From positions 1-23,446 of IMG/VR virus record IMGVR_UViG_3300032087_001394: DNA of 23,446 nt; one strand, written 5' to 3'. The DNA comes from a virus. Each line of letters opens with the position of its first letter. Position 1 is the first letter of the stretch. Position numbers and translations under genes: made by a program. The notes beneath the pieces are model-generated. The model was not told the origin of the DNA. It made no database searches and saw only the letters and a program-made list of their open reading frames with translations. Below are positions 4,040 to 15,997 of this stretch, piece after piece.

Positions 4040-4996
4040 TTATATCTCCTTTATCGTCAAAGTTTTCTGACGCATGGTATATGCGTCCTTCGCAGGTACT
4101 ACCCTTTGAGGCTTTGCGCTGTAGCTACGCATCGGGCGACTGATTTGATATAGGCGATTGCCTACCAGCCCTTTCGCCTTGGGGTGTGCGCCCATGTACT
4201 CCATGATCGTGGCCTGCGCCGCGTCAATTCGCGCTTCACTTGCGCCCTTGTCCGCCCGTGCTTCGACCAGATCACTAAGCGCTTCCGCCACTTCCGCGTC
4301 CTTCGACAAATCAATCTCCGGCGCATCCTGATCGACCGTGCTATACGCGTGTGCGGCGTCATCGCTGGACTCCACAGGGTAAAAATCCACATCCGCCTTT
4401 CGGCGCTCGAAATCCACGACCGCTTCCGCGATCTGGCGCTGAATTTCAAGGTCCGCAGCATACACAAACAGACGCAAATCAAGTCCTTGATACAGCGTCG
4501 CGATTACGCCTGACTGGTGGCCCGTACACATCATCTGCGCCTGCAACTGTAGCGGGCCACGCGAAGCCGGTGGGCGGGATTCAGGGTGAGATCGGGTCGC
4601 CTTGCTTTCGACGAGTACAGGCCCGGTCAGGTCTATCGTGTCGGCGTTCATTGTAAATATGCCCCTGTCCGCGTCAGTGCTTATCGTGCCGCTGCCTTCT
4701 CCCAAGCCATCAAGGCTACACGCCATGCGTAGCGTCGGGTGCGGGAACGCGGCAGGGAAATCGTCGCGAAAATTTTGCAGGCCTAAACGCTCCGCCGCGA
4801 CTTTCAGTATCACGGGTTCAAGTTCGTTACCCCAAAACGTCGCTTCATTGCCCGTAAAGGTATCAACGAACGTCCCTTCCGCTGCCGCAATGCAGCGTTG
4901 AAGCAACTGATTGCGCGTCATGTATGGACTATAGCCCAGCAACGCGGGTACAACGCTCGCGCTGATAATGTCGTCAGGTGTTAGTTTCCCAACCAT
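4040..4996 (-). CDS. YqaJ / lambda-type exonuclease
   Basis: 318 aa. The start ATG 4996 has AAGGAG 6 bases upstream, in the leader AACCAAGGAGA. Family signs in order: SASVVPALLGYSPY (~12-25), WGNELEPVI (~55-63), MACSLDG with Asp96, VLVESKAT with Glu130 and Lys132, and QLQAQMMCTG (~150-159). This is the 5'-3' dsDNA exonuclease type used in Red-like recombination, which loads a single-strand annealing protein. The C-terminal ~100 residues are helical (DLVEARADKGASEARI), as in long YqaJ proteins. It is the last gene of the minus-strand cluster, two bases after the recombinase stop. No Redbeta/RecT/Erf partner is recognisable in the window. Confidence 0.85.
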   Translation of the reverse strand: MVGKLTPDDIISASVVPALLGYSPYMTRNQLLQRCIAAAEGTFVDTFTGNEATFWGNELEPVILKVAAERLGLQNFRDDFPAAFPHPTLRMACSLDGLGEGSGTISTDADRGIFTMNADTIDLTGPVLVESKATRSHPESRPPASRGPLQLQAQMMCTGHQSGVIATLYQGLDLRLFVYAADLEIQRQIAEAVVDFERRKADVDFYPVESSDDAAHAYSTVDQDAPEIDLSKDAEVAEALSDLVEARADKGASEARIDAAQATIMEYMGAHPKAKGLVGNRLYQISRPMRSYSAKPQRVVPAKDAYTMRQKTLTIKEI

Positions 4997-4997
4997 T

Positions 4998-5645
4998 TTA
5001 TTCTCCTTGGTTTTCGATTAAGCGGGACACGCTGGCGGGATGCCAGCGCTTGCCCATTGCACTTGAAATTCCGGCCCCGTTAAGGGCGGCGGCAATTTCG
5101 CGTAAACTTGCGCCCTTGTCCAGTAGCGGACGCGCGACCGCTAACGCCCCTTCCGCCACCCGCGCGGACGCGGCAAGGCGCTTCCGTTTGGTTGTCGCGC
5201 CGCCCTTTTCCGGGCAGGGACAACCGAGCGTAACGCCCCGCGCCTTGGCGGCAGCAAGCGCCGCGCGGGTGCGCTCACTGATTTTGCGGCCTTCCCATTC
5301 GGCAAAGACTGCCGCCATTTGCAGAAAAGTGCGGTCCGCTTCCGGCATATCCGCCGCCATGATCGGAACGTTGCTTTCTAATAGGCCCGATACAAAATGA
5401 AGGTTCCGCGCTAGGCGGTCGAGCTTTGCGATTAACAGCGTCGCGCCCTTCTCACGACACGCGGCAAGGGCAAGCGCCAGTTCCGGGCGATCACTTTTCT
5501 TGCCGCTTTCGATTTCCGTAAATTCCGCGACGATATCCCCCCGCCACGGTTCAACGGCGGCACGTTGCGCGTCTAAGCCAAGGCCCGATTGCCCCTGCCG
5601 TTGGGTCGAGACGCGGTAATACGCGACGTATTGCGGCGCGGTCAT
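4998..5645 (-). CDS. Small serine recombinase (resolvase/invertase type)
   Basis: 215 aa. The start ATG 5645 overlaps the preceding stop as ATGA; GAGGTG lies upstream. The catalytic domain is complete: YYRVSTQRQG with nucleophile Ser13, ESGKKSDRPEL at 46-55, AKLDRLARN at 73-81 with the conserved arginines, and FAEWEGRKISERTRAALAAA for the E-helix. A helix-turn-helix of the Hin/resolvase kind fills 163-213 (LREIAAALNGAGI, WHPASVSRLI). At this size it is a resolvase or invertase, not a 450+ aa large serine integrase. It could resolve genome multimers, invert a segment or integrate the phage. I see no clear att or res site next to it. Confidence 0.88.
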   Translation of the reverse strand: MTAPQYVAYYRVSTQRQGQSGLGLDAQRAAVEPWRGDIVAEFTEIESGKKSDRPELALALAACREKGATLLIAKLDRLARNLHFVSGLLESNVPIMAADMPEADRTFLQMAAVFAEWEGRKISERTRAALAAAKARGVTLGCPCPEKGGATTKRKRLAASARVAEGALAVARPLLDKGASLREIAAALNGAGISSAMGKRWHPASVSRLIENQGE

Positions 5646-7274: not shown

Positions 7275-7484
7275 ATGGCGGAAACAAAGGGCATTCGGCC
7301 CGTATGCTTGAGGCTTTCCGACGCAACGCATGAAGCATTGCGCGACGCGGTGACGCATTCGGCGCATAGAAGTATGTCAGCGCTGGCGGATGAAATTCTG
7401 GCGGAAGGGCTGGCGCGTCGAAACGCCGAGACAATGAGCGACATTGATCGCATGATACGCGCAGCGCGGGACGCTGGGGCGTGA
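7275..7484 (+). CDS. Ribbon-helix-helix-like DNA-binding protein
   Basis: 69 aa, with GAAGG 9 bases before ATG. The N-terminal 44 residues fit a ribbon-helix-helix pattern: a short strand (GIRPVCLRLSD), helix 1 (ATHEALRDAVTHSA) and helix 2 (SMSALADEILAEGLAR), as in CopG/Arc/ParD-type proteins. It is followed by a short helical tail. As first gene of the rightward operon, next to the inverted repeat at 7200-7242, it is a natural candidate to bind that repeat and regulate both operons, or to act in copy control. The fold assignment is by eye. Confidence 0.6.
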   Translation: MAETKGIRPVCLRLSDATHEALRDAVTHSAHRSMSALADEILAEGLARRNAETMSDIDRMIRAARDAGA

Positions 7485-7924
7485 AGCAAGGCGGCGGCAG
7501 GCAAAAAGGCGCGGCCTTTGAGCGTGATATTGCGCGGGAGTTAGACGCGCAATTAGGGATCGCGTTCCGGCGCGACCTTATACAGTATCAGGAACGCGGG
7601 CGCGGCGATCTGGCGCGCGTAGACGGCGAACCGTTCCCATTCGTTATAGAGTGCAAGCGCTACGCTAAAGGGCCGATCCGGGCCGAATGGTGGCGGCAGG
7701 CATGTGGCGCGGCACGAGCGGCTGGCGCTATGCCCGCGCTTGTATGCCGCTTTGATCGCGGGCCGGTCATTGTGCGGATACCATTTGCGGCGATTGTTAA
7801 AATGGCGGAAGGGTCCGGCCATTACGCGTGGGACTATTATTGCGAGTGCGATTTTAGTGCGTTTTGCATGATCGCGAGGGAGCTACTGGCAGTTGAAAAG
7901 GCGGGGGCAGAAATATGCTTATAA
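7481..7924 (+). CDS. PD-(D/E)XK nuclease, Holliday-junction-resolvase-like
   Basis: 147 aa, start GTG 7481 overlapping the previous stop (GTGA). Catalytic pattern: Glu14 in KGAAFERDIAREL, Asp43 in ERGRGDLARVDG, and Glu57-Cys-Lys59 in FVIECKRY, followed by a conserved Trp-rich helix (AEWWRQACGAARAAG). This arrangement is that of Hjc-like or phage Holliday-junction nucleases of the PD-(D/E)XK superfamily. It would cut branched DNA during replication or before packaging. It differs from the other nuclease at 3726-4037, which uses DxK. No accessory domain is seen; the C-terminal third (HYAWDYYCECDFSAF) is unassigned. Confidence 0.72.
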   Translation: MKQGGGRQKGAAFERDIARELDAQLGIAFRRDLIQYQERGRGDLARVDGEPFPFVIECKRYAKGPIRAEWWRQACGAARAAGAMPALVCRFDRGPVIVRIPFAAIVKMAEGSGHYAWDYYCECDFSAFCMIARELLAVEKAGAEICL

Positions 7925-7950
7925 GTGGCGTTTTTAGAACAATTCTAATG

Positions 7951-8123
7951 GGACGCTATGCGGACGTGTCCTGTTTAGCGTGTCCCATAACAGGACATGG
8001 CGGACATTCAACGAAATCAATGGCTTATTGACTCATGTCCTGTTGGTGTCCTGTTTGTTTTGGCATGAAATGGGACGTGTCCGCATGTCCCCCCCCCTTT
8101 AAGGGGGGACATGGGACAGGACA
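7951..8123. repeat. GTCC/GGAC word cluster, candidate origin or operator array
   Basis: Fourteen GGAC or GTCC words lie within about 172 bases of non-coding DNA (7951, 7962, 7968, 7982, 7993, 8002, 8037, 8048, 8073, 8079, 8087, 8107, 8114, 8119); about 1.3 are expected by chance with equal base frequencies. The 7-mer GTCCTGT occurs at 7968, 8037 and 8048, and its reverse complement at 7990 and 8116. Copies at 8037 and 8048 are 11 bases apart, one DNA turn. TGTCCTGTT (7967-7975) and AACAGGACA (7989-7997) form an inverted pair. The block lies between a resolvase-like gene and the replication genes, so iterons or a repressor array are the likely readings. Confidence 0.6.
8084..8113. other. Perfect C-run/G-run hairpin
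   Basis: CATGTCCCCCC (8084-8094) pairs with GGGGGGACATG (8103-8113) around a short loop; a run of nine C and one of six G make the stem able to slip. There is no following T-run, so it is not a normal terminator. It is inside the GTCC/GGAC cluster and ends 44 bases before the next gene. Confidence 0.6.
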
Positions 8124-8157
8124 TGCCCGGAAATCGTGTTTTGCTTGAGGTGTCGAA

Positions 8158-8760
8158 ATGAATAAAAAAACGCGTTCGACGCGTCGGAAAGTGCCCGCCC
8201 CTGATCGTGGAATACAACGCGAACTCACGGCGAGCTATTCGCGCCAATATGCAAAGGTGCAAAGCGCGATTGTGGATTATGACAGAATTGCGTCGGAGTT
8301 CGAGCGCAAGTGGGGCGTTGATCGGTTGCCGGAACTTGTTGACGCGGAATTGCGTGAGCGTTTCTGGGAAACGATTCATCGGTTGAACGTGGCAATCAAC
8401 AAGAATGATCCCGACGAAGTGCGACGACATGCCGACGCTGCTGCGCGTGGCTGGTATGCCTTAGATCGCGCTGCAATCGCCGCTGGCGCGCTTCCGCCGT
8501 CCGGCGAGGGTTGGGACGCCCGAATCGATGAGACGCGCGTCCTGCGCGTTTGTAAGACGATTGACGACGCGTGTGTTTCTCAACGGGAGCGCCCGGACGT
8601 GGTCGCGGTATCGGTTGAGGAAATCGCGCGCTTGTGGAAAGTCTGGGATGAGCGCGATATTGTCGCGATGGCGAAACAGGCGTTTCCCGGTGCAGAGATA
8701 CTAGAAGCGCGGGCGAAATCTAACGAAAAGGGCGATCCGAATGACGCAATCCCGTTCTGA
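8158..8760 (+). CDS. Hypothetical protein, replication region
   Basis: 200 aa. ATG 8158 has GAGGTG 7 bases upstream. It is mainly helical and charged. The N-terminus is basic (MNKKTRSTRRK), followed by YSRQYAKVQSAIVDYDRIAS, FERKWGVDRLPELVDAELRE and a long helical region. The C-terminal end (GDPNDAIPF) recalls the short acidic hydrophobic tails that bind host replication proteins, but this is a weak likeness. It starts right after the GTCC/GGAC block and overlaps the winged-helix gene by 20 bases, so it may act with it in replication. No known domain is recognised. Confidence 0.7.
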   Translation: MNKKTRSTRRKVPAPDRGIQRELTASYSRQYAKVQSAIVDYDRIASEFERKWGVDRLPELVDAELRERFWETIHRLNVAINKNDPDEVRRHADAAARGWYALDRAAIAAGALPPSGEGWDARIDETRVLRVCKTIDDACVSQRERPDVVAVSVEEIARLWKVWDERDIVAMAKQAFPGAEILEARAKSNEKGDPNDAIPF

Positions 8761-9424
8761 GTTGCCGGAAATCAAGCGGCAATGGTCTATCCTGCCGGTT
8801 CGCGCGTTGCTTGATCGTGGATTAAAAGAGCGGGAGTTCCGAACCCTTGCCGCGCTTTGCATCTTTACGAACTCTTACGGCGTTTGTTGGCCCGGCGTGA
8901 CAACTCTTTCCGCGATTATCGATTGCGATAAGGCGACAATCTCCCGCGTATTAAATCGCCTTGTGGCGAAGGGTTATGTTCGCAAGTTAAAGCCCTCTGA
9001 CTATCAAATGGAATTTGCTAAATTCGGCAAGATAAGCCGTTACCAAGTGTTGTATGAGCCGGAAGCGCCCTTGCCGTCGTGGGAAGAAGTGCAATCGGCA
9101 ATCGTACTTGCCCCGGTCGAAGACCAGCCCGAACCGCCAATAAATGAATTGGGGTCCGGGGGATCAGACGCGCTCGTGTCTCTCTCTCACGCGCTCGCTC
9201 ACGCATATCTTCGCGCCGTGCAGCGCCGGACCGGACAGACGCGGCGCTTTGATAACGAGATCAATCACGCGCGGCGCTTGGCGGAGCAAGGCGCGACCGT
9301 GGCGCAGGTGACGGAAGCGACCGAGGCGTTGTGCCTTGCCTATCTGGCCGAAAGGCGCGGAATACCTAGCCTTGCGGACGTGGCGCGGCAGGGTGTTACG
9401 AAATCAAACGAGCGTTTGCCATGA
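8741..9424 (+). CDS. Winged-helix replication initiator-like protein
   Basis: 227 aa, ATG 8741 inside the end of the preceding gene; AAAAGGGCG upstream can serve as ribosome site. Residues ~17-82 form a helix-turn-helix/winged-helix block: LPVRALLDRGLKEREFRTLA, GVCWPGVTTLSAIIDCDKAT, ISRVLNRLVAKGYVRKL. This is the 'GxxWPS.. LA' pattern of phage replication proteins of the lambda-O/DnaD-like HTH kind. Residues 110-150 are a Pro- and acid-rich linker and the remainder is helical (HARRLAEQGATVAQVTEATE). The position after an iteron-like block suggests origin binding. It could alternatively be a transcription regulator. Confidence 0.62.
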   Translation: MTQSRSELPEIKRQWSILPVRALLDRGLKEREFRTLAALCIFTNSYGVCWPGVTTLSAIIDCDKATISRVLNRLVAKGYVRKLKPSDYQMEFAKFGKISRYQVLYEPEAPLPSWEEVQSAIVLAPVEDQPEPPINELGSGGSDALVSLSHALAHAYLRAVQRRTGQTRRFDNEINHARRLAEQGATVAQVTEATEALCLAYLAERRGIPSLADVARQGVTKSNERLP

Positions 9425-9573
9425 GACGGGCCGGGGCTTTTTCTTTTTCGGCGCTGGCGCGAGGGGCACCCCTTGCCCCCCCGCCCTGTCCCGTATCTAT
9501 ATGGGGGTATCGCACAAAATTTTCCCACGAAACCACAGTAAATCGTTATCGCGAAAGGAGAATCACGAAATGA
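9421..9573 (+). CDS. Possible 50-aa ORF between replication genes (doubtful)
   Basis: The start ATG overlaps the upstream stop (ATGA) and its stop TGA overlaps the start of the next gene (ATGA), the spacing typical of this genome. However, its Ala/Pro/Arg-rich sequence has no recognisable domain and no ribosome site of its own. Otherwise this stretch holds only a short GGGGCA/TGCCCC hairpin (9463-9479) without a T-run. Confidence 0.25.
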   Translation: MRRAGAFSFSALARGAPLAPPPCPVSIWGYRTKFSHETTVNRYRERRITK

Positions 9574-10181
9574 AGAAATCACGAAAAGTCCACGGCGTCG
9601 GCATAAACGACGCGGACTACGCTGTACGCCCCAGAGGACCGGACGGTAAGCAATTATGGTGTCCGTATTATCGTGCATGGTCCGGTATGCTCAAACGCGC
9701 CTACTGCCCCAAGTTCCACGCCCGCCAACCTACCTACATCGGCGTCACGGTATGCGAGGAATGGCACTCGTTCATGGCGTTCCGCGCTTGGATGGAGACG
9801 CAGGATTGGGAAGGGAAGCAACTCGACAAAGACATCATCGCGCCGGGAAACAAAGTCTACTCGCCCGACACATGCGTCTTTGTGTCGCCAAATCTTAATA
9901 CCCTGCTCACCGACCGCGCCGCCGCCCGTGGCGAATGGCCGATTGGGGTGTGTTTTGATAAGGCGAAAAAAAAATTCTGCGCCTATATCAAAGAAGGAGG
10001 GAAACAGCGAAACCTCGGGCGCTTCACCTGCCCGCATGAGGCGCACATGGCATGGCGCAAAGCAAAAGTGCGAATCGTTCGCGACGCCGCCCGCGAACAG
10101 GACGATCTGCGTGTTTACGATGGCTTGCTGCGCCACGCGGCGCGAATTGAGAGTGACAACAGATGTGTTGCGTGCCGCTGA
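9570..10181 (+). CDS. HNH/AP2-type phage endonuclease-like protein
   Basis: 203 aa from ATG 9570, with AAAGGAG 9 bases upstream; longer readings lack a ribosome site. It has the pattern of phage endonucleases with a degenerate HNH core: YYRAWSGMLKRAYCP (16-48 region), VTVCEEWHSFMAFRAWM, then WEGKQLDKDIIAPGNKVYSP and DTCVFVSPNLNTLL. A following AP2-like DNA-binding segment reads GVCFDKAKKKFCAYIKEGGK then RNLGRFTCPHEAHMAWRKAK. Such genes often spread as free-standing homing endonucleases. It lies between the initiator-like gene and the SSB-like gene, consistent with insertion into a replication operon. The cleavage site is unknown. Confidence 0.7.
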   Translation: MKKSRKVHGVGINDADYAVRPRGPDGKQLWCPYYRAWSGMLKRAYCPKFHARQPTYIGVTVCEEWHSFMAFRAWMETQDWEGKQLDKDIIAPGNKVYSPDTCVFVSPNLNTLLTDRAAARGEWPIGVCFDKAKKKFCAYIKEGGKQRNLGRFTCPHEAHMAWRKAKVRIVRDAAREQDDLRVYDGLLRHAARIESDNRCVACR

Positions 10182-10334: not shown

Positions 10335-10949
10335 ATGGCTCTAGGTTTAGATGTAGGAAACAAATCTTCTGGCGATATTTTGCCGATTTTGAAGTTTGAC
10401 GCGAAGGCGGGTGACTTCATTCGCCAAGATCGCTTTCAGAGCGAAAGCGGGGCATGGGAGAAGACCGAGGAGGAGGTAAAACTTCCCCTAGAATTTGCTG
10501 TCGATTTTGAGAAAATGGAGGTCGGTTGGCTTTCGTTTGCAACGGGTCATCCAGACTTTGCGATGACTCGCGTTGGTGGCGAGATGCCAGCCCGCCCAAC
10601 GCCAGAACACAAGCAGGCGTTCCGTATTCGTCTGACGAATGACGATCTGGGTCTGCGGGAATTGTCCGGCAGCAGCAAGACGTTGCTTAGGGCGATGGAC
10701 AAGTTGCACGACGAGTATGTGTCGCAGTCCAAAGCGAATCCGGGCAAGTACGCTCTCGTTGTGGTTGACGACCTTGAGACGGTCAAGGTGAATACACCGC
10801 AGGGCGAGTTGCGTTTTAAGTCTCCGCTCTGGAAGATTGGTGGTTGGGTTGACGCGCCTGATGCTTTCCAAGGCAATCAGGCGTCAACGCCCGCGCCTGA
10901 AGATGATGATCGCGTTATTGAGCAAGAAGACGACGGCGATTTGTTTTAG
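10335..10949 (+). CDS. Putative single-stranded DNA-binding protein
   Basis: 204 aa, with AAAGGAAAG before ATG. A mostly beta domain covers residues ~1-165 (GDILPILKFDAKAGDFIRQD, WLSFATGHPDFAMTRVGGEM, AFRIRLTNDDLGLRELSGSS). The C-terminal tail is disordered and acidic and ends in Phe (APEDDDRVIEQEDDGDLF). An OB-like body with an acidic, Phe-ended tail is the layout of T7 gp2.5 and bacterial SSB, where the tail contacts other replication proteins. It lies just upstream of the primase-helicase, which fits. The identification rests on shape, tail and neighbours. Confidence 0.6.
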   Translation: MALGLDVGNKSSGDILPILKFDAKAGDFIRQDRFQSESGAWEKTEEEVKLPLEFAVDFEKMEVGWLSFATGHPDFAMTRVGGEMPARPTPEHKQAFRIRLTNDDLGLRELSGSSKTLLRAMDKLHDEYVSQSKANPGKYALVVVDDLETVKVNTPQGELRFKSPLWKIGGWVDAPDAFQGNQASTPAPEDDDRVIEQEDDGDLF

Positions 10950-11004: not shown

Positions 11005-12036
11005 ATGAACACAAATTTATCAGCATATATTGAGATGGTGGCGCGTCATTATTGGGGTGAGCCTAACCCGAAGCCGCGAGGGCGGAAACTTCGGTGGGGT
11101 ACGCATAATGGGCGCGAGGTCGATCTACGCAAGGGCGTGTGGTTTGACTACGAATTAAACAAGGGTGGCGGCGTCGTAGATATGGTGCGCCATCACGAAG
11201 GTGCGTCGTTGAAGCCGATGCACGAAATCCTTCAACAGAATTTTGGCATAACGCGTGACGTTGAAGAGCGTATTCGCCCAAAGGAATGGCTGTCGAAGGT
11301 TTATGAGTATTATGACGAGAATGGTGTTCTGTCGTACCAAGTGCTGCGTTATGAGCCAAAGCGTTTTATACAACGGCGTCCTGACGACAAGGGCGGTTGG
11401 GTATGGAACATGGATGGTGTGACGCCACTGCCGTATAACCTTCCGCTTATCGTCAATCATTCCAACCGCCCGATCCTGATCGTTGAGGGTGAGAAGTGTG
11501 CGGATGCGCTGGCGCAGGCAGGTTTTCTCGCGACGACGAGTCATGGCGGTGCGCGAAAGTGGCGCGAGGATTTGAACCGCTGGTTCGAAGGTCGCGCCGT
11601 TGTGATGATAGCCGATAACGACGAGGCGGGCGAGGCGCACATGGATATGGTCGCGGAGAACCTGAACGGTGTCGCCAATCGCATGAAGCGCGTCGTGCTT
11701 CCGAACCTTGCGCCGAAGGGCGATGTCGCGGATTGGCTTGCCGCGAATGGCAATGACGCGGAACGGTTGAAGCACATCATGCGCTCTACGCCGTTGTATG
11801 AAGTGCCGGATGACCTACCGGAAGTTGAGCAATCGGGCGACGAGGCGGAAGGCGAGCAGGCGGATACGTTCGAGATATATACGCTTGAGCACTTGCGTCG
11901 TATGCCGCCGGTCGAGTGGTTGATTGACGGGATGCTGACGAAGCATGGGTTTAGTGTGCTGTACGGTGAGCCGGGTGCAGGCAAGTCGTTTCTCGCGTTG
12001 GACTGGGCGCTGTCTATCGCGCATGGCCGTGCGTGA
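11005..12036 (+). CDS. Primase-helicase, N-terminal part up to an in-frame TGA
   Basis: 343 aa, with AAAGAAG before ATG. The order is: an N-terminal primase-type region (GTHNGREVDLRKGVWFDYEL then NKGGGVVDMV, 33-61); TOPRIM domain with LIVEGEKCADAL (158-169, catalytic Glu161), ADNDEAG (203-209) and KGDVADWL (238-245); an acidic linker; and the start of a RecA-like ATPase with Walker A GEPGAGKS (321-328). The protein then stops at TGA 12034. The downstream frame continues without shift and contains Walker B, so the ATPase is cut between its two nucleotide-binding motifs. Relatives normally have Trp at the TGA position. Read-through would give 618 aa. Primase activity of the short form may remain, but helicase activity should not. 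Confidence 0.85.
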   Translation: MNTNLSAYIEMVARHYWGEPNPKPRGRKLRWGTHNGREVDLRKGVWFDYELNKGGGVVDMVRHHEGASLKPMHEILQQNFGITRDVEERIRPKEWLSKVYEYYDENGVLSYQVLRYEPKRFIQRRPDDKGGWVWNMDGVTPLPYNLPLIVNHSNRPILIVEGEKCADALAQAGFLATTSHGGARKWREDLNRWFEGRAVVMIADNDEAGEAHMDMVAENLNGVANRMKRVVLPNLAPKGDVADWLAANGNDAERLKHIMRSTPLYEVPDDLPEVEQSGDEAEGEQADTFEIYTLEHLRRMPPVEWLIDGMLTKHGFSVLYGEPGAGKSFLALDWALSIAHGRA

Positions 12037-12051
12037 CAGGGGCGTCATAAC

Positions 12052-12861
12052 GTGACGGCTGGCAGCGTATTGTATATCGCTGGTGAGGGCGTCGGCGGAT
12101 TGGGTAAGCGCATCAAGGGCTGGGAGTTTCATCACGAACTGCCCGGTGCGGACTGTCCGTTTTATGTTCTGCCTACGGCGGTACGTTTTCGTGAGCAAGG
12201 TGATATTGAGAAGCTGATGCGGACGATTGATTCGCTTGGACAGCGTTTCTCTCTTATCGTGATTGATACGGTCGCCCGTGCCCTTCTGGGTGGTGACGAG
12301 AACAGCGCGACGGACATGGGTATGTTTGTCGATGCGTGTGACGCGATCAAGCGTCATGCTGGTTGCGCTGTGTTGGCTGTTCACCATTCGGGCAAGGATG
12401 CGGCGCGTGGAATGCGTGGCAGCACGTCGCTGCTCGGTGGCGTGGACGCTTCGCTTCGCGCCATGCAAAACGACGGCCTGATGACCATCCATGTGGAGAA
12501 GCAGAAGGATGCAGAACCCGCCGACGATATTAACTTGCGTATGGTGAGTGTCGGTCTGATTGGAGATCAGACTGTCGTGCTGCATGAGACGGATAAGCAG
12601 GGCGTTCCGAAGAAGCGTGGCGAACGTCTGACCGGGCCGCAGAAGATAGCGTTGCAGGCGTTGACGAACTTGGCGGTCGATCACGGGCCGAAGGTTTCTG
12701 TCGCGGCGTGGCATGATGAACACAACGGCAAGACGCCATCTGCGACACGACAGGCGCGTAATCGTGCGCGTGACGCCTTGCAGAACAAAGGCATCGTCGT
12801 GATCGACAAGGGACATGCGTGGGTGGACTACAGCGTGTTGAAGGGGGATGGCGGTGAATGA
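12052..12861 (+). CDS. Primase-helicase, C-terminal RecA-like ATPase part
   Basis: 269 aa counted from GTG 12052, in the same frame as the previous part; the stretch between is five sense codons (QGRHN) after the TGA. It begins at the conserved AGSVLYIAGEGVGGLGKRI strand, then has Walker B FSLIVIDTVARALLGGDEN (67-85), AVLAVHHSGKDAARGMRGST (106-125) and a winged-helix-like C-terminus (TRQARNRARDALQNKGIVVI). AGGGG at 12038-12042, 9 bases before GTG, could allow separate initiation. Without Walker A it cannot bind ATP alone, so read-through, association of the two parts or loss of function are the choices. Its stop overlaps two downstream starts. Confidence 0.8.
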   Translation: MTAGSVLYIAGEGVGGLGKRIKGWEFHHELPGADCPFYVLPTAVRFREQGDIEKLMRTIDSLGQRFSLIVIDTVARALLGGDENSATDMGMFVDACDAIKRHAGCAVLAVHHSGKDAARGMRGSTSLLGGVDASLRAMQNDGLMTIHVEKQKDAEPADDINLRMVSVGLIGDQTVVLHETDKQGVPKKRGERLTGPQKIALQALTNLAVDHGPKVSVAAWHDEHNGKTPSATRQARNRARDALQNKGIVVIDKGHAWVDYSVLKGDGGE

Positions 12862-12913
12862 GCAAGAAACCATCAACGTCCTCGACCTGTTCAGCGGCAT
12901 CGGAGGAGATTGA
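12854..12913 (+). pseudogene. Remnant of a C5 cytosine DNA methyltransferase N-terminus
   Basis: Read from GTG 12854 the frame gives VNEQETINVLDLFSGIGGD and a stop. 'VLDLFSGIGG' is motif I of Dcm-type C5 methyltransferases, the SAM-binding loop, located as usual within the first 20 residues. The frame is broken right after GlyGly, and no later methyltransferase motif (PCQ, ENV) follows. The GTG overlaps the primase stop, the position a real gene would have. The rest of the gene seems to have been deleted and replaced by the repeat protein. Confidence 0.7.
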
Positions 12914-12914
12914 G

Positions 12915-13472
12915 ATGACTACTTTTGATTTTGATGACGGTAAAGGTCCGGTTCCGGCTCACAAGCATTACAATGGTGGTGGCTGGGTTGCTGATACGGC
13001 TGAGGTTGCTGATACCGCACATGTAGGGCGAGATGCTAGGGTCTATGGCAATGCTAGGGTCTTTGGCAATGCTAGGGTCTATGGCGATGCTAGGGTCTTT
13101 GGCAATGCTAGGGTCTTTGGCGATGCTAAGGTCTATGGCGATGCTAAGGTCTTTGGTAAGTCTTGGGTCTTTGGTAATTCTTGGGTCTATGGCGATGCTA
13201 GGGTCTTTGACAAGGCCTGGGTCTATAACAATGCTCAGGTCTCTGACAATGCTAGGGTCTCTGACAATGCTTTAGTCTATGGCGATGCTAAGGTCTTTGG
13301 TAAGTCTTGTGTCTTTGGTAATTCTTGGGTCTCTGACAATGCTGTGGTCTTTGGCAGTGCTTTAGTCTATGGCGATGCTAAGGTCTTTGGTAAATCTTGG
13401 GTTTATAAAAATGCTGTGGTCGTCGAGCAAATCGGAAAAGCAATCCTCGCAGGAGAAACGGATGAGATGTAA
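12915..13472 (+). CDS. Hexapeptide-repeat (left-handed beta-helix) protein
   Basis: 185 aa from ATG 12915, with GGAGGAG 6 bases upstream. An in-frame ATG at 12858 would add 19 low-complexity residues read out of frame through the methyltransferase remnant, so it is rejected. After MTTFDFDDGKGPVPAHKHYN there are about 25 six-residue units of the form A-[R/K/W]-V-[Y/F]-G-[D/N] (ARVYGN ARVFGN ARVYGD), which would form about eight turns of a left-handed beta-helix. Such folds occur in acyltransferases and in phage proteins of unknown role. No active-site His or CoA motif can be picked out. The DNA is an 18-base tandem repeat, so length may vary. Confidence 0.72.
   Translation: MTTFDFDDGKGPVPAHKHYNGGGWVADTAEVADTAHVGRDARVYGNARVFGNARVYGDARVFGNARVFGDAKVYGDAKVFGKSWVFGNSWVYGDARVFDKAWVYNNAQVSDNARVSDNALVYGDAKVFGKSCVFGNSWVSDNAVVFGSALVYGDAKVFGKSWVYKNAVVVEQIGKAILAGETDEM
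13021..13418 (+). repeat. 18-base tandem repeats coding hexapeptides
   Basis: Units of the form GATGCTAGGGTCTATGGC recur about 22 times with point differences. A longer block, TATGGCGATGCTAAGGTC followed by TTTGGTAA(G/A)TCTTG, appears three times (near 13134, 13278 and 13367), which points to duplication of several units at once. The repeats keep the reading frame, so gain or loss changes only helix length. Confidence 0.8.
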
Positions 13473-14270: not shown

Positions 14271-14448
14271 CGTCATAGACCTTTCGCGTCGTTACGTTCG
14301 TTTTTATGCCAAGCCTGTTGAGTGTACCCGCTGCGGCGAGTTATCTCGCGGTCGTATTTACGACAGTACGCAAGCGGTCGTCTGCGGTTATTGTGGAGAT
14401 TTGTGGTGGTTGTGGAAATTGGATTCTGAGGAGAGATGGGATGGCTAG
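14257..14448 (+). CDS. Zinc-ribbon mini-protein between terminase genes
   Basis: 63 aa from ATG 14257 (14254 also possible); AAGG precedes the cluster of ATGs. A Cys4 zinc ribbon is clear: CTRCGEL (22-28) and VVCGYCGDLWWLWK (41-54). It overlaps the end of the small terminase and the start of the large terminase. A role in packaging control is possible from position, but the sequence gives only the metal site. Confidence 0.65.
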   Translation: MNGNNVIDLSRRYVRFYAKPVECTRCGELSRGRIYDSTQAVVCGYCGDLWWLWKLDSEERWDG

Positions 14449-15997
14449 AGCGCAACGGGCGACTGATCGTTCACCACGTCGCAAGCGCCAGCGTGATACG
14501 GATGCGCTGACTGGATTAAACTTGGACTTCAGCGAAAGCCCGACAGTCTGGAAGTTTTTGAACGACGATAGTTTTGTTCGCGGCCTAATGGGTCCGGTCG
14601 GCAGCGGCAAGACGTATGCCAGTCTGGCGGAAGTGATGCTTCGCGCTGTCAAGCAGCCGCCCTCGCCGGTTGATAACATCCGCTACACACGCTTTGCAGT
14701 CATTCGTAACTCGTATCCAGAACTTCGCACGACGACGATTAAGACGTGGCAAGAGATATTCCCTGAGAACACTTGGGGCGATATGCGCTGGTCTCCACCG
14801 ATCACGCATCACATCAAGCTACCCCCACGCGATGGAGCGCCGGGTCTTGATTGCGAAGTGATATTTCTCGCGCTAGATCAGCCGCGTGATGTGCGAAAGT
14901 TGCTGTCACTTGAACTGACCGGCGGATTCATTGACGAGGCGCGTGAACTGCCGAAGGCGGTGGTCGATGGTCTGACATCGCGTGTCGGTCGTTACCCGAC
15001 GAAGAAGAACGGCGGTTGTCCGTGGCGTGGCGTGTGGATGTCAACAAACCCGATGGATTCGGATCACTGGTGGCCGAACCTTGCGGAAAAGAACCCTATA
15101 CGCGGTCGCTATCCTTGGAAATTCTTTAAGCAACCCGGTGGCGTAAAGGAAGGAACGAAGGAACACCAAACAGCGATCTTCGCGGCTGACAAATACTGGA
15201 TAATTAACGAAGGCGCAGAGAATCTAAGCAACTTGCCTCCCGGCTATTACGAGCAACAGCTTGCTGGTAAAACGATTGATTGGATTCAATGTTATGCCGG
15301 AGCGCAGTACGTTTATGTTCAGGACGGCAAACCGGTGTGGCACGAGTTTAGTGATAGTTTGATGTCGGCGGATTTAGAGATTGAGACTGGTATGCCTGTG
15401 CATGTCGGGCTCGACTTTGGTTTGACGCCCGCTGCGGTGTTTGGCCAGAAGATGCCGAACGGTCGATGGCATCTCGTACATGAACTTGTCGCCTTCGATA
15501 TGGGGCTTGAACGATTCGCGCATCATTTGATGGCGGATATCCAGACGAAGTTTCCGAAGTCGGAGATATTTATCTGGGGCGACCCGGCTGGTGGCAAGCG
15601 TGACGAGATATTTGAGGTCACAGCGTTCGACCATCTGCGAACGTTGGGGCTTCGCGCCCAGCCGACAGTATCGAACGATTTTAAGGTGCGTCGTGAAGCT
15701 GGCGCGATGCCGATGAACCGTCTGATCGACGGTCGCCCCGGACTGCTTGTGTCGAGGGAATGTATGCGGACACGAAAGTCTTTATCTGGCGGATATCATT
15801 TCAAGCGCGTTGCGGTTGGTGCTGGTTATGAACGCTTCCGCGACATGCCGAACAAGAACGAGCATTCGCACGTTGGAGACGCATATGGCTATCTGATGTT
15901 GGGCGGCGGGGAGCATCGCACCTTGACGCGCAATCCGAACGGTCGCCCGATGTTCAAGCAGCACATGGCCGCGACCGACTTCAATATCTTTGCGTAG
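14441..15997 (+). CDS. Terminase large subunit
   Basis: 518 aa from ATG 14441, with GAGGAGAG upstream; longer readings have no ribosome site. ATPase: Walker A GPVGSGKT (51-58), Walker B GGFIDEAR with Asp165 and Glu166, coupling motif WMSTNP (199-204). Nuclease: HVGLDFGLTPAAVFG with Asp325, FIWGDPAGGKRDE near 380, and HSHVGDAYGYLML near the C-terminus, giving the acidic metal site of the RNase-H-like fold. The basic N-terminus (RSPRRKRQR) may bind DNA. It drives ATP-dependent genome packaging and cuts concatemers. A complete protein of normal length. Confidence 0.93.
   Translation: MARAQRATDRSPRRKRQRDTDALTGLNLDFSESPTVWKFLNDDSFVRGLMGPVGSGKTYASLAEVMLRAVKQPPSPVDNIRYTRFAVIRNSYPELRTTTIKTWQEIFPENTWGDMRWSPPITHHIKLPPRDGAPGLDCEVIFLALDQPRDVRKLLSLELTGGFIDEARELPKAVVDGLTSRVGRYPTKKNGGCPWRGVWMSTNPMDSDHWWPNLAEKNPIRGRYPWKFFKQPGGVKEGTKEHQTAIFAADKYWIINEGAENLSNLPPGYYEQQLAGKTIDWIQCYAGAQYVYVQDGKPVWHEFSDSLMSADLEIETGMPVHVGLDFGLTPAAVFGQKMPNGRWHLVHELVAFDMGLERFAHHLMADIQTKFPKSEIFIWGDPAGGKRDEIFEVTAFDHLRTLGLRAQPTVSNDFKVRREAGAMPMNRLIDGRPGLLVSRECMRTRKSLSGGYHFKRVAVGAGYERFRDMPNKNEHSHVGDAYGYLMLGGGEHRTLTRNPNGRPMFKQHMAATDFNIFA

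Follow-up and report, generated by a model that had tools for sequence, protein, structure and literature searches.

The array of short repeated words at about 7949-8124 of a 23,446-base IMG/VR virus record (the whole record is called the window here) is quite probably the iteron array of a phage replication origin, in which the word would be read by the C-terminal winged helix of the phage primase-helicase. We found that the array is conserved in relatives with a constant layout, and that its word covaries with the recognition helix of the primase-helicase. As in iteron origins, a short word is repeated, directly or inverted, in a non-coding stretch, and this stretch is placed with replication genes and is conserved there.

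The block is bounded upstream by the stop of a PDDEXK nuclease gene (7481-7924) and downstream by the start of the gene at 8158, and is overlapped by mechanical minus-strand open reading frames only. This agrees with the earlier note, which had described a non-coding block directly upstream of putative replication genes. The core word of the array is GTCCTGT, in direct and inverted copies. Fourteen copies of the 4-mer GTCC/GGAC were counted within 7951-8122, the number given in the earlier note, and the five copies of GTCCTGT/ACAGGAC in both directions were likewise recovered at 7968, 8037 and 8048 (plus) and at 7990 and 8116 (minus). Two of these (8037-8054, plus strand) have a spacing of 11 bp, and the inverted pair with 9-bp arms that had been noticed consists of TGTCCTGTT (7967-7975) and AACAGGACA (7989-7997). 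The near-palindromic word pair GGACGTGTCC, a 10-mer, occurs at 7962-7971 and again at 8073-8082, and is absent elsewhere in the window. An exact match (AATCAATGGCTTA, 8015-8027, plus strand) to the IHF consensus WATCAANNNNTTR lies in the block, and an inverted repeat, CATGTCC-C(n)TTTAAG(n)-GGACATG (8084-8113), forms a GC palindrome between words; the array, the 10-mer and the inverted repeat are assigned to no strand. The single-stranded DNA fold of 8068-8130 has a z of -4.0.

The 4-mer count alone is modestly unusual, just beyond chance: no 4-mer exceeded 14 copies in a 175-bp stretch of the window, and in 20 first-order Markov shuffles the corresponding top count averaged 10.7 and reached 12 at most. 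The excess of the 7-mer is the clearer signal, with 6 copies of GTCCTGT/ACAGGAC in the whole window against 1.45 expected, a number reached in 0 of 100 shuffles. Cumulative GC skew, which had been suggested as an origin marker, was uninformative, having no minimum at the array, and a nucleotide search of the block against named phages returned no related match. The decisive evidence that the array is real is not the word count but its conservation in relatives.

Nearly all relatives of P8158, the unnamed protein encoded directly after the array, have an array at the same place. The window array is conserved in the loci L003, L004, L005, L016 and L017, each of which has a pair similar to that at 8037 and 8048; the first three, whose P8158 homologues are 84-88% identical to that of the window, retain its landmarks. 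More distant P8158 homologues have the same array position and other words (GTATA, GTGTGA, GGTTCG, GGTTGCG, CGTTGC, GTGCGA, GGTAAGG, GGTTAA and more), and more than 15 different words were seen overall, including GTCCTGT, ATGTGA, GTGCGA, ATGAGA, GTCCGG, GGTTAA, GGTCG, TGTAGT and GTATAA. What stays constant is the layout, in which a GC palindrome with the centre CCC-TTTA/TATA-GGG is accompanied by direct and inverted word copies of opposite orientation on its flanks; the palindrome flanked by words is a landmark also of arrays with other words. Thus conservation in relatives, the lack of which the earlier note had named as a reason to abandon the proposal, was found for both the array and its layout. 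The top 6-mer was significantly repeated in 46 of 56 representative loci. The IHF consensus was matched exactly or with one mismatch in the window-type relatives examined, and exactly in 5 of the 56 arrays against 0.4 expected from shuffles, while in many adjacent-type arrays the IHF-like site was weak or missing. In most relatives the array occupies a gap of about 85-210 bp within a same-strand gene run, directly downstream of the helicase gene, and the CRP roseophages have the same module in the order helicase, array, P8158. The window differs in that the array lies about 2.9-3 kb upstream of the helicase gene.

In the window, the P8158 gene (8158-8760, plus strand) is followed by the gene of an O-like replication protein with an HTH_36 domain (8741-9424, plus strand). 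P8158 had no match in Pfam or PHROG. It carries an SSB-like C-terminal tail (8740-8757; family consensus LDDEIPF), and such a [DE]x[ILV]PF tail ends 109 of 116 P8158 homologues, the CRP homologues being without it. The structure of P8158, predicted well (pLDDT 87), is a helical bundle with a small alpha/beta part, for which a fold search gave no clear match; the better matches were uncharacterised or unnamed viral proteins, one with a weak terminase-small-subunit label. A gene for an HNH endonuclease with a weak AP2 match (9570-10178) stands between the O-like gene and the gene at 10335-10949 (plus strand). In locus L009 a gene related to this HNH gene lies after the helicase, and the HNH gene looks mobile. 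The product of 10335-10949, with no family match of its own, is a probable single-stranded DNA-binding protein, as suggested by its position before the helicase, which is the same in CRP phages.

The RepA-like primase-helicase itself (11005-12861, plus strand) has a weak Toprim match and an AAA_25 core. Its gene has an in-frame TGA at 12034-12036, where the close relative L005 has Trp. This interruption, which counts against the proposed reading, might reflect recoding, a gene that is broken or an error of sequencing. The C-terminal domain (12631-12846, plus strand), the candidate reader of the word, is predicted by AlphaFold2 to be a winged helix, with a mean pLDDT of 75 and about 84-90 over the helices. 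Its fold matches the winged helices of the replication initiators Cdc6/Orc1 and MCM with Z of 8.4-8.9, and other winged helices score similarly. The recognition helix of the model, RQARNRARDALQNK (12748-12789, plus strand), coincides with the covarying residues, and no other protein segment predicts the array word as well by its similarity. Elsewhere in the window, the protein encoded at 12858-13472 is built from short repeating units, VFGNARVYGDAR, and may be a repeat protein of beta-helix-like type, and at 4040-5645 a small serine recombinase adjoins a YqaJ-type exonuclease, a pair kept in many relatives.

The relation between word and recognition helix was examined over loci with both features, of which two viral-contig scans yielded 119; these were reduced to 56 diverse representatives. 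Word similarity was taken from the 5-mer spectra of the arrays and helix similarity from 18 alignment columns. Word and recognition helix correlated with r=0.46 (Mantel, 56 loci), and the helix kept a partial correlation of r=0.28 (p=0.0005) given the core, P8158 and the rest of the domain, in permutation tests that remove shared ancestry incompletely. The rest of the domain (r=0.03, p=0.29, given helix, core and P8158) and P8158 (r=0.06, p=0.18, given helix) make no significant further contribution when the helix is controlled for. At core identity below 65%, array similarity was 0.33 via the helix neighbour, 0.23 via the core and 0.14 via P8158, with an average of 0.18. By eye, helices of the type G[KNA]RRDAR go with ATGTGA/GTGTGA, S[RAT]RR[DS]AR with GTGCGA/ATGCGA, SR[RK]R[AS]DDR with ATGAGA and [RQ]RA[GS][DE]AR with GTCCG words; these groups are descriptive and drawn from the same data, and are not a tested code.

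Because the array directly follows the helicase gene in most loci, linkage can mimic such covariation. In windows sliding along the C-terminal part of the helicase, the correlation peaked on TRQARNRARDALQNKG (r=0.52), with a weaker signal in the last codons. The peak thus falls on the helix and not on the codons that are closest to the array in most loci, which argues against simple linkage. Against the covariation stands a comparison of loci whose array is distant with those whose array is adjacent, in which helix and word showed no significant association (9 loci, r=0.09, p=0.25). One locus with a distant array, L131, has its array 4.2 kb from the helicase stop and a core nearest to those of L006 and L101. 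Its helix TSGARRDAR resembles that of the TSGKRRDAR loci, and the word GTGTGA is common to both, though the arrangement differs. L244, found later in a scan of bacterial genomes, has the helix TAGKRRDAR with the word ATGTGA, as expected.

Two natural changes of the word agree with the covariation of word and helix. Among the CRP phages, CRP-831 and CRP-821 have GTATAA arrays, and CRP-811 and CRP-823 have TGTAGT arrays. In the pairs compared, the ATPase core of the helicase is 99-100% identical. Identity of the C-terminal domain is 98-99% for phages sharing a word but drops to 67% for phages with different words. The N-terminal half groups otherwise, 821 with 823 at 96%; the array thus goes with the C-terminal domain in the manner of a cassette. 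The second change is between L245 (Ancylobacter) and L246 (Methylocystis), alphaproteobacterial contigs from the scan that gave L244. Up to the linker their helicases share 96% identity, against 32% in the C-terminal domain; their P8158 proteins are 88% identical, and their arrays differ (GCGGAGAC versus TGCGGAAC). That the helicase-array-P8158 module occurs on contigs assigned to Ancylobacter radicis (L245) and to a Methylocystis MAG (L246) suggests integrated phages.

The choice between an iteron origin and a multi-site operator had been left open in the earlier note. Such a class of element is well supported by the conserved array and layout, but there is a better candidate than the binders proposed there (the 8158 protein, the winged-helix or O-like protein and the RHH protein), as the changes of the word track the C-terminal winged helix of the primase-helicase instead. 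We consider it unlikely that the array is a transcription operator only, through which the helicase C-terminal domain or another regulator controls the P8158 and O-like genes, with replication starting elsewhere. The array does immediately precede P8158, a position that it keeps in loci with a relocated helicase gene. However, no sigma-70-type promoter-like site was found at 7850-8250 (alphaproteobacterial promoters may differ), the gap in most relatives lies inside a same-strand gene run, and at least 10 sites around a palindrome are more than in a usual operator. The two roles are compatible, and the arrays may also serve as operators. It is quite improbable that the word is read by P8158, the O-like protein or the RHH protein, even though P8158 adjoins the array, the O-like protein has its HTH_36 domain and an RHH gene is nearby in the window. 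P8158 is about 90% identical across the word change in the CRP phages and adds nothing given the helix; these results, from the CRP phages and from the partial Mantel tests, led us to reject it as the reader. Its best sliding window reached 0.22. The best window of the O-like protein reached 0.36 against 0.56 for the helicase helix in the same loci; the CRP phages have no O-like match, and a search for the O-like protein in named phages found none.

The palindrome and inverted words can also fold as RNA, but that the block acts as a leader hairpin or attenuator of P8158 is highly improbable: the palindrome is without a U-tract terminator, and RNA pairing predicts no covariation with a protein recognition helix. 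Rfam gave only sub-threshold matches in the window, one of them whalefall-1 at 18.7 bits with 37 needed, and none of 18 relatives had a family at the gathering score. Clustered repeats can be carried by packaging sites as well. A cos or pac site at this place is nevertheless extremely improbable, since the block is about 6 kb from the large open reading frame at 14306-15997, which is terminase-large-subunit-like by eye, and a separate terminase small subunit is annotated in the CRP phages.

For an iteron origin read by the primase-helicase, we propose that the C-terminal winged-helix domain would read the short word, and that the many copies, some of them helically spaced, would gather helicase subunits beside the GC palindrome. 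Host IHF probably bends the array, and the helicase-primase would open and load on its own origin near the palindrome. The probable role of P8158, with its SSB-like tail, is that of a partner connecting this complex with replication proteins of the host or the phage. The word and the helix have changed together across lineages, either as a swapped cassette or by co-evolution.

Several known systems are close to this arrangement. SaPI Rep and SCCmec Cch2 are initiator helicases that use their C-terminal domain to recognise short repeats immediately after the gene (PMC7581432). Likewise, the protein described here is a helicase, with an AAA_25 core, and has a C-terminal domain predicted to be a winged helix, a candidate for DNA binding; the covariation and the two natural changes (CRP, L245/L246) would be compatible with a specificity set by this domain. 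Unlike SaPI Rep, which belongs to a different helicase family, it combines a primase region with an AAA_25 core of the RecA type. The P8158 gene follows the array, which is built around a GC palindrome, and the iterons, downstream of the helicase gene in most relatives, are upstream in the window. P4 alpha reads repeats with a C-terminal winged helix. It is also a primase and initiating helicase in one protein (PMC7145576). The chain described here has a weak Toprim match, AAA_25 and a predicted winged helix, and differs in helicase family, in words and in having the array beside P8158. In the PLE satellites of Vibrio cholerae, the origin varies together with the RepA_N DNA-binding domain, and both are exchanged although the initiator is otherwise conserved (PMC8263062). 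There the reader is an N-terminal RepA_N domain and not a helicase, and two specificity groups are described. Iteron plasmid origins combine repeats, some at helical spacing, with host bending proteins, and use dedicated Rep initiators in place of a primase-helicase. The CRP-822-type roseophages, which are described isolates, share the helicase-array-P8158 module, and their description makes no mention of an iteron or repeat (PMC12629253).

The principle is therefore already known from SaPI Rep, SCCmec Cch2 and PLE, and the novelty here lies in the family to which the helicase belongs, in how many words there are and in P8158 as a partner. Our literature search found no description of the helicase-array-P8158 module, although such absence is not proof. 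The module supplies a candidate origin and initiator for a large group of marine phages, for which none is described in the literature searched. As a tentative proposal, which may well prove wrong, marine and alphaproteobacterial phages could share one origin chassis whose word and single recognition helix have been rewritten jointly on more than 15 occasions, giving a natural winged-helix recognition code driven by selection against cross-talk, exclusion or origin-directed attack by competing elements. The natural pairs of word and recognition helix, some only 1-2 bases and a few residues apart, would make it possible to study how a winged-helix protein shifts from one DNA target to another, and why these phages keep changing the word (exclusion, satellites or origin-directed nucleases) becomes a testable question.
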